NCBI GenBank assembly: GCA_937921595.1
Contig: CAKZTD010000079.1
Span: forward strand, 1 to 39,898
Direction of reading: 5' to 3'
DNA from: an uncultured Saprospiraceae bacterium
GTDB taxonomy: Bacteria; Bacteroidota; Bacteroidia; Chitinophagales; Saprospiraceae
DNA length: 39,898 nt
The notes under the pieces are model-generated. The model was not told the origin of the DNA, did not search any database, and worked only from the letters and a program-made list of their open reading frames with translations. Below are positions 91 through 36,378 of the stretch, one piece after another. A program made the translations under genes and the position numbers. Position 1 is the first letter of the stretch. The number at the start of each line of letters is the position of its first letter.

Positions 91-221
91 GATCATGTTG
101 AAATTTACTGCCTGCAAAATAAATACTTTTTATTGGGAAAAACTAAAGATTGTTCAATAATGAATTAGTAATGCCGAACAGGACTTACAATTTTGTTAGT
201 TATGTCAATTAAGAGGTGAAT

Positions 222-382
222 AATATTAGTTTTGAATTAGCTCTAAGCTATGAAAAAGGGTATTAGGTGTTCTGTGTTCGGGCTCTACGAATGCCAAACA
301 CCGAATACCCTTTACCGTTTACAATCAGATTAAAATTATGCTATTGGGAGTTATGATAATACCTTTCAAACCTGATTCGCAT
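222..382 (+). repeat. Dispersed intergenic hairpin element, copy A
   Basis: This is one of three related intergenic sequences in the window (the others are 18887-19083 minus and 21501-21658 plus). Shared blocks in order are AATATTAGTTTT, a CTAAGCTA box, a central hairpin, a TTTACA-type block followed by TTAAAAT.ATG, and a closing GATTCG(C/A)AT. In this copy the hairpin arms are 258-271 and 297-310, fourteen pairs with one mismatch. It ends about 110 bp before the VWA start and has the same orientation as that gene. It contains no credible ORF. It could be a structured leader, a REP-like repeat or a small RNA; the sequence alone does not decide. Confidence 0.7.
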
Positions 383-18886: not shown

Positions 18887-19083
18887 ATTCGAATCGAGTT
18901 TTGAATTTACTATAGAAGCAAAGCACATGATTTTTAAGGAAGTGTAAACGGTATTAGGTATCCCGCACCTGCCCGTATGACGCAGTCGGGTTGGTTAGAA
19001 TAGTCCGAAAACCGAATACCTAATGCCATTCCTTATTAGCTAAGGACAAATTAAAAACTAAAAATATTTTAACCCCTGATCGG
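18887..19083 (-). repeat. Dispersed intergenic hairpin element, copy B
   Basis: Read on the minus strand this matches copies A and C: CCGATC and AATATT...TTAGTTTTTAA, then the TTAGCTAA box, a long hairpin, TTTACACT.CCTTAAAAATCATG, GCTTTGCTTCTATAGTAAATTCAAAA in pieces, and GATTCGAAT. The hairpin arms are 19014-19027 and 18950-18962, about twelve pairs. Its interior is longer than in the other copies and has its own GC-rich inner fold (CCCG...CGGG, CTGC...GCAG around 18962-18990). It begins 18 bp after the HtrA stop codon and lies upstream of the aldo/keto reductase on the same strand. No coding potential. Confidence 0.7.
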
Positions 19084-19101
19084 CATAGCTTATTAAAACA
19101 C

Positions 19102-21484: not shown

Positions 21485-21500
21485 TTTTATATATTTTATT

Positions 21501-21658
21501 CCGATCTGGTTTTAATTAATATTAGTTTTTAACTTGTTCTAAGCTAAAAAGACGGTGTTAGGTATTAGATTCTCGGGCTTTCCTAACACCTTCCCCCTTT
21601 ACACTCCATTTAAAATCATGCGCTTAGCTTCCATCGTAAGTTCAAAATTGATTCGCAT
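21501..21658 (+). repeat. Dispersed intergenic hairpin element, copy C
   Basis: This is the shortest and cleanest copy: CCGATCTGG, AATATTAGTTTTTAA, TTCTAAGCTA, a hairpin with a perfect 9-bp stem (GGTGTTAGG at 21554-21562 with CCTAACACC at 21582-21590), TTTACACTCCATTTAAAATC, GCTTCCATCGTAAGTTCAAAA, GATTCGCAT. It shares these blocks with copies A (222) and B (18887, reversed), whereas the stem bases differ between copies yet still pair. It lies 170 bp before the S9 peptidase in the same orientation, 16 bp beyond the divergent PhyH start. Confidence 0.72.
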
Positions 21659-21828
21659 ATTTTATCTAAAAGTTACAGATTAAAAAAGTGATTTCCAAAA
21701 TTGAATCCGGAAAATGATATTTCCATTCAGGGGTTATTTCAAGTAATGTAACCACTAACTAAATACCGCAATCTAATTCCGACCTTTGTTAATCGATTTT
21801 TCCTTATTTTCAGGCAAAATTTTAAACA

Positions 21829-36106: not shown

Positions 36107-36155
36107 GTGCTAATTTACCTTCGTTGAAGGGATAGATTCTCACTACGTTCGAATA

Positions 36156-36269
36156 GGGATAGATTGCCTACGGCAATAGTGGCACTTTTGTTTGGTAAAT
36201 CGATATACTGATGATAAGTTTTTCACTTCTGATAAAGCGAGCATACTATTGCCGTAGGCAATCCATCCC
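36156..36269. repeat. Large inverted repeat (25-bp arms) in the gap before the HAD gene
   Basis: Arm 36156-36180 (GGGATAGATTGCCTACGGCA then ATAGT) and arm 36245-36269 are reverse complements with a single mismatch, separated by 64 bp. The left arm is preceded by a second copy of GGGATAGATT (36130-36139) after CCTTCGTTGAA, and the right arm continues into CCTTCACCGAAGG, so the repeat unit extends to about 40 bp with a small duplication on one side. A degenerate third remnant (CGCTGAAAGCGACCATCCC) follows near 36325. No ORF. It resembles a REP-type intergenic repeat. Confidence 0.65.
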
Positions 36270-36378
36270 TTCACCGAAGGCGACTATCTCTTAAAAAGAG
36301 TGAAACAATTTTTAACAAGTATTTCGCTGAAAGCGACCATCCCTTTTGACAAGCACAGCGAGACAAAATAAAAAAAAC

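Follow-up and report, generated by a model that had tools for sequence, protein, structure and literature searches.

Cardinium belongs to the Bacteroidota. The closest described system is found there in MITECca01, considered together with ISCca4 of the IS982 family: it is a MITE of about 240 bp, described as likely derived from an IS982-family element (PMC9769881). It resembles the repeat family reported here in being short, gene-free, lineage-specific and flanked by inverted repeats, and its ends are described there as closely resembling the ends of an IS982-family insertion sequence. Since an IS982-derived MITE has thus already been published, the kind of element is known. According to the same account, however, intact copies of the parent insertion sequence are present in the Cardinium genome, whereas the parent of our family was not found in its genome, and MITECca01 keeps a short subterminal stretch of the insertion sequence, whereas an unsystematic look at the interior of our family revealed no such remnant (PMC9769881). 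Within the terms used, a duplication length for MITECca01 was not found there. The repeats CIR, RUP and YPAL are likewise small, non-coding, often intergenic and equipped with inverted repeats, but are described with other ends or duplications (PMC2229807). Within the terms used, a description of the present family was not found in the open-access library searched. What is new here is the ATGCSAATCAGG-like type of end together with the differing hairpin interiors, whose variety between the same ends is unusual; the mechanism itself is ordinary.

The window, by which we mean the whole analysed stretch of 39,898 nucleotides from an uncultured Saprospiraceae bacterium, contains three copies of this repeat (Table 1). 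The ordered blocks and the central hairpin that the initial annotation had named were present in all three, and the copies scored 105 to 121 bits against the family profile, whose seed had taken in the three window copies themselves. The right ends given earlier, at 382, 18887 and 21658, were exact; the true starts lie further out than the left ends given there, at 202, 19086 and 21498. The statement that terminal inverted repeats were missing had to be revised as well. Alignment of the copies showed that the conserved sequence of the family starts with ATGCCAATCAGG and finishes with CCTGATTCGCAT, forming an imperfect terminal inverted repeat. In the alignments the left repeat reads ATGCCAATCAGGGTTTAAA and the right end, read backwards, ATGCGAATCAGGTTTGAA, so that the family ends can be described as ATGCSAATCAGG-like and about 18 bp long. 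The sequence between them comprises AT-rich arms and, in the centre, a hairpin made of GGTATTAG-like units; in copy 2 its loop is longer and includes a CCCGACTGCGTCATACGGG stretch. The window copies are too short to hold a transposase gene, and the open reading frame listing of the window has no frame of 80 or more amino acids within any of them. By eye, the copy at 18887-19086 of the window and those at L008 and L151 form a subfamily, recognisable by additional sequence around GACTGCGTCAT in the loop of the hairpin.

Table 1. Positions of the three repeat copies and their parts in the window.
Feature	Position	Strand	Remarks
MITE copy 1	202..382	+	181 bp; flanking pentamers TAGTT/TTGTA, 3/5 match
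Central hairpin, copy 1	255..313	+	GGTATTAG-type arms
MITE copy 2	18887..19086	-	200 bp; flanking pentamers 1/5 match
Central hairpin, copy 2	18947..19029	-	approximate limits
Left target-site duplication, copy 3	21493..21497	+	ATTTT
MITE copy 3	21498..21658	+	161 bp
Central hairpin, copy 3	21554..21590	+	
Right target-site duplication, copy 3	21659..21663	+	ATTTT

Many copies per genome had been anticipated from the three in the window, and the genome scan indeed found further ones. With copy 3 alone as the query, the genome of the window (G000; 8.04 Mb in 465 contigs) was matched 41 times at E <= 10, and 34 of the matches were below 0.001. A 176-base consensus raised 193 candidates, and with 40 of these scored it matched at least 40 distinct places at E <= 2.6e-31; six further rows were the opposite strand of places already counted. 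A profile was then run on the sequence read, which comprised the window, large contigs totalling about 780 kb and the loci around matches. It gave 70 distinct places with E < 1e-4; of these, 61 scored at least 40 bits, and both ends were present in 42. As the 780 kb of contigs had been picked for size or for containing matches, densities derived from them are biased. Merging by shared 30-mers gave 64 and 55 places instead of 70 and 61, the lower counts arising from the merging of separate copies with common conserved core sequence. An equal amount of Markov-shuffled sequence (820,883 bases) returned three matches, the best with E = 1.1. When two mismatches were allowed, the end pattern ATGCSAATCAGGNTTNAA occurred 57+59 times in the genome versus 6+5 times for the control read backwards.

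Two deviating forms were seen among the loci read. By eye, the hairpin core occurred without the element ends at L070:6179-6241, L080:1352-1420, L088:18457-18528, L090:19270-19334 and L098:12573-12638, in some cases just behind an apparent stop codon; the end-less core is perhaps a separate palindromic repeat in a terminator-like place. Conversely, the minimal elements L100:1451-1518 and L206:2872-2943, of 68 and 72 bp, have no hairpin and carry an exact 5-bp duplication. They may be the product either of a deletion after insertion or of a transposition without the hairpin.

Exact 5-bp duplications flanked 11 of 34 full copies, versus 0.21 expected by re-pairing the flanks, and the mean identity of the 5-bp flanks was 0.665 versus an expected 0.378. 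Another six copies matched at four of the five positions, and 7/34 at none or one. This set left out copies with E > 1e-6, with incomplete ends or no more than 40 bp from the end of a stretch, as well as duplicates, and all 34 retained copies lie at different contig positions. At flank lengths of 2, 3, 6 and 10 bp there was no excess (permutation p of the mean at least 0.50), and for lengths of 4 and 7 to 9 bp any excess of the mean was weak (p 0.04 to 0.09), with one exact match in all. The pentamers in this genome leaned to WANTW, a tendency to which the AT-rich background may contribute. In the window, copy 3 has the same pentamer on both sides; copies 1 and 2 are without an intact duplication, and any duplication at copy 1, with agreement at just three of five positions, has decayed. 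Copy 2 could be compared with an empty site, as it is absent from the orthologous place in the congeners G001 and G002: its two flanking genes are 317 bp apart in the window, compared with 24 bp in G002 and about 160 bp in G001. In 39 relatives, four of them of the same genus, a full-length copy was not found among the best candidates (up to 20) scored per genome; G002 gave two matches, to the hairpin core only.

We attribute the three repeats to a MITE family and give this reading as a whole a probability of roughly 0.9. The initial annotation had offered a non-autonomous repeat as one of two possibilities, and this one is supported by the inverted-repeat ends, the duplications, the dispersal, the empty site in two congeners and the sharing of its ends with a transposase-bearing element elsewhere. 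As for the mechanism, an IS982-like insertion sequence would provide its DDE transposase in trans; this enzyme would recognise the ATGCSAATCAGG-type ends of about 18 bp, move the 160-200 bp between them and insert at a 5-bp staggered cut, which would leave the 5-bp duplication. Selection would presumably have removed copies inserted into genes, which would explain why the remaining ones are intergenic. The central hairpin of GGTATTAG units would travel as passenger DNA, since in other genera the same ends enclose other palindromes.

A likely source of such a transposase emerged from G340 and G148, two genomes of other families of the order. Their ends lay at contig edges in all ten loci fetched, a place where multicopy elements are often found. 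In G340, a transposase tail of 38 residues is followed directly by an 18-bp end that departs from the searched consensus at one position. The tail has four matches within that genome and is 63.2% identical to the transposases annotated on the plasmids pAT1 and pAT3 of Aureibacter tunicatorum. The insertion sequences on these plasmids measure 978 and 979 bp, have ATGCGAATCAACAGT/ATGCGGATCAATAGT ends and are flanked by GTATA on both sides; in pAT1 a boundary placed one base inwards would give a 7-bp duplication, and in pAT3 the duplication is 5 bp. The Aureibacter ends agree with those of the family over about the first ten bases only. A broken relative in Salinibacter ruber pSR76, of 34.9% identity, ends at its stop codon in ...TCAACCCCTGATTCGCAT, the complement of ATGCGAATCAGGGGTTGA, and shows no clear left end. 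The Aureibacter transposase matched Pfam DDE_Tnp_1 (E = 5.3e-9) and is thus a DDE enzyme; its best family was IS982 (E = 2.1e-30, the best of three models listed), with a score of 106.1 bits that lies under the NCBIfam curated cut-off of 130. The 38-residue tail itself had one unrelated Pfam match, below cut-off, and PDB yielded a single match at chance level. The corresponding tail in G148 (GKLAAAFVSLIF, stop) is a weak reading from 54 bases, where protein searches matched nothing.

An IS982-like source of the family appears quite likely from these data, and we infer that a transposase of this type mobilised the window copies. Another DDE transposase may instead have moved them, its ends resembling those of the IS982-like one by coincidence. 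We consider this unlikely in view of the end directly behind the G340 tail and of the similar ends and GTATA duplications around the Aureibacter insertion sequence. In its favour are the differences from two IS982 comparators, a copy on a Bacteroides faecis plasmid and ISGsp1 on a Geobacillus plasmid. Both have a related DDE transposase (26-29% identity) and, like the Aureibacter insertion sequence, about 1 kb of length, one gene and short inverted repeats. Their ends are of the ACC type with 7-bp duplications in the simplest reading, versus ATGC ends and GTATA in Aureibacter, although with two comparators the contrast is a weak one. ISGsp1 has ACCC ends and a 7-bp duplication, compared with ATGC ends and 5 bp in the present group; the Bacteroides faecis copy has ATC/ACC ends and 7 bp in that reading, other boundaries being possible. 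The same alternative draws on the failure of a search of the window's own genome to find the IS982-like transposase. When 14 genomes were searched with the Aureibacter transposase (E <= 1e-5), two gave matches, namely the tail in G340 and a distant one in G428, and the type was not found in G000, G148, G073, G071, G041, G053, G076 or G079. Multicopy insertion sequences often drop out of draft assemblies, so the absence from G000 is unproven. With the transposase not found in the assembly, the family looks orphaned and is probably immobile today.

Several candidates for an autonomous element were rejected. Among the loci read in the window's genome, a 1401-bp end pair (L152) encloses ordinary-looking genes and is without a duplication. 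No transposase was recognised by eye among the open reading frames beside the lone ends of G053 (L217, L220). The distant transposase of G428 (L268) is without ATGC ends, and a weak match in G073 (L261, E = 0.23) falls inside other genes and was put down to chance. One end-pattern scan matched a single contig of Desulfobacterales. In viral contigs there was one end-pattern match, with no transposase recognised by eye in its first 2 kb, and the protein scan of these contigs confirmed no relative.

The position of the copies relative to genes was classified for 59 of them. Copies below 40 bits were left out, four at stretch edges were set aside and no doubles were included; one member of this set, L070:6179, matches the hairpin core only. 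None lay inside an open reading frame, although only 11% of the sequence is intergenic under the crude gene-calling rule applied throughout, by which an insertion that breaks a gene would count as intergenic. The neighbouring genes were divergent for 18 copies, codirectional for 37 and convergent for four, which did not differ from what intergenic length predicts (p = 0.19). Each copy had been said to lie upstream of a gene on its own strand. This is so for the three in the window. In the family, a same-strand gene follows 37/59 copies (binomial p = 0.07), a gene reads away from the other end in 36/59, and the orientations between codirectional genes are balanced at 19:18. The last two figures leave the rule that the copies point toward the following gene unsupported for the family.

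These observations bear directly on the other possibility raised at the outset, a structured RNA family, as a 5' leader or a small RNA, that regulates the downstream gene. Its appeal lies in the placement of the window copies, in the same-strand gene behind 37/59 copies of the family, in the absence of copies from open reading frames and in the folding of single copies, for which z was below -2 in 16/34 (mean -2.4, median -1.7); copy 3 as a whole folded no better than its own shuffles (z = -0.47). Against it, the 19:18 orientation shows no preference and the arrangement classes fit intergenic length. RNAalifold returned no consensus pair on 32 aligned copies, a weak result as the alignment has many indels; two long-loop copies of the 34 had been excluded and some rows were short by a few end bases. 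Within the window no Rfam family reached its gathering score. Inverted-repeat ends and 5-bp duplications also speak against an RNA family, as do relatives that carry different interiors between the same ends. The data lend no support to a conserved RNA, and we hold this explanation to be very improbable. The 5-bp duplications, the lack of copies in open reading frames and the balanced orientation together favour a MITE over a leader RNA. A spread of REP-type palindromes by a tyrosine (Y1/RAYT) transposase, suggested by the hairpin cores without ends and by two tyrosine transposase genes in the genome (L035, L036), is less credible still, as such transposition is not known to leave a duplication, in conflict with the clear 5-bp duplications here, and as consensus matches around both genes were at chance level, with other palindromes seen there by eye.

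For the MITE family, the search for its ends was extended to 100 genomes of the family Saprospiraceae, the window's own included, and 396 of the order. At the level of the order, 11/396 genomes had a match and every control had none. Relative to the reversed control, end matches numbered 17+26 versus 0+1 in G073 and 5+7 versus 0 in G053; for G071 (29+20), G148 (6+3) and G340 (3+3) the control was 0 in each case, and G076 and G041 had fewer matches. Loci were read in some of these relatives, selected for showing the ends. Their elements measure about 70 to 410 bp and have the same ends with differing interiors: G073 and G041 carry a CGTGCCGTAGGTACGC palindrome, G053 has AAATAGC arrays, G076 has several GC-rich palindromes, and other hairpins occur in G071 and G079. 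Exact 5-bp duplications were present in 21 of 45 of these elements versus 0.98 expected, with no exact matches at 4, 7, 8 or 9 bp and one at 6 bp. The set of 45 left out pairs with more than four end mismatches in total or near a stretch edge, and is without the single-end loci L233, L236, L237, L239, L242 and L245, the ten loci of G148 and G340, and L189-L192. The flanks in G073 suggest ATGANTCAT as a palindromic target, of which GANTC is duplicated. At L252 in G071 one element is nested within another, and both have exact duplications of their own.

It is conceivable, though we would not favour it, that the ATGCGAATCAGGRGTTAA-like ends with their 5-bp duplication act as an exchangeable hairpin carrier, which in different genera has taken up and amplified different units, either palindromic or of the short-tandem-repeat kind, some of them similar to arrays adjacent to PF05635 genes. 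If so, such ends would provide every genome with intergenic hairpins of its own. The G073 hairpin was not seen outside these elements in about 60 kb of that genome, unlike that of G000, which also stands alone; this argues against a general rule that the interiors are repeats found independently in the same genome. By eye, the GGTATTAG arrays look like those beside PF05635 genes, which are of the 23S rRNA intervening-sequence type; as to the source of the interiors, this resemblance is a lead and not a demonstration. An element carrying a PF05635 gene inside was considered and rejected, as the genome has four such genes and no consensus copy around them. Many of the PF05635 genes read (L158-L187, L031-L034) are flanked by tandem units of about 7-9 bp, with the reverse complement on the opposite side and a unit specific to the locus. 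By shared 8-mers, 12/34 of these loci were above the 99th percentile of mismatched flank pairs in inverted orientation and 9/34 in direct orientation. In L032 the gene lies between two direct repeats of about 150 bp, at about 1298-1445 and 1843-1990, that start with ATGCGAATCA; a 5-bp duplication was not seen there by eye.

The assignment to a MITE family explains a conspicuous repeat as mobile DNA, which might otherwise be filed as regulatory RNA. Its signature of ends and duplication lets similar mini-elements and IS982-like relatives be found, and the same ends around different hairpin interiors make the acquisition of palindromic cargo by MITEs testable by comparison. Outside the MITE family, the window also contains a distinct 26-bp inverted repeat at 36155-36180 and 36245-36270, whose arms are 96% complementary and 64 bp apart.
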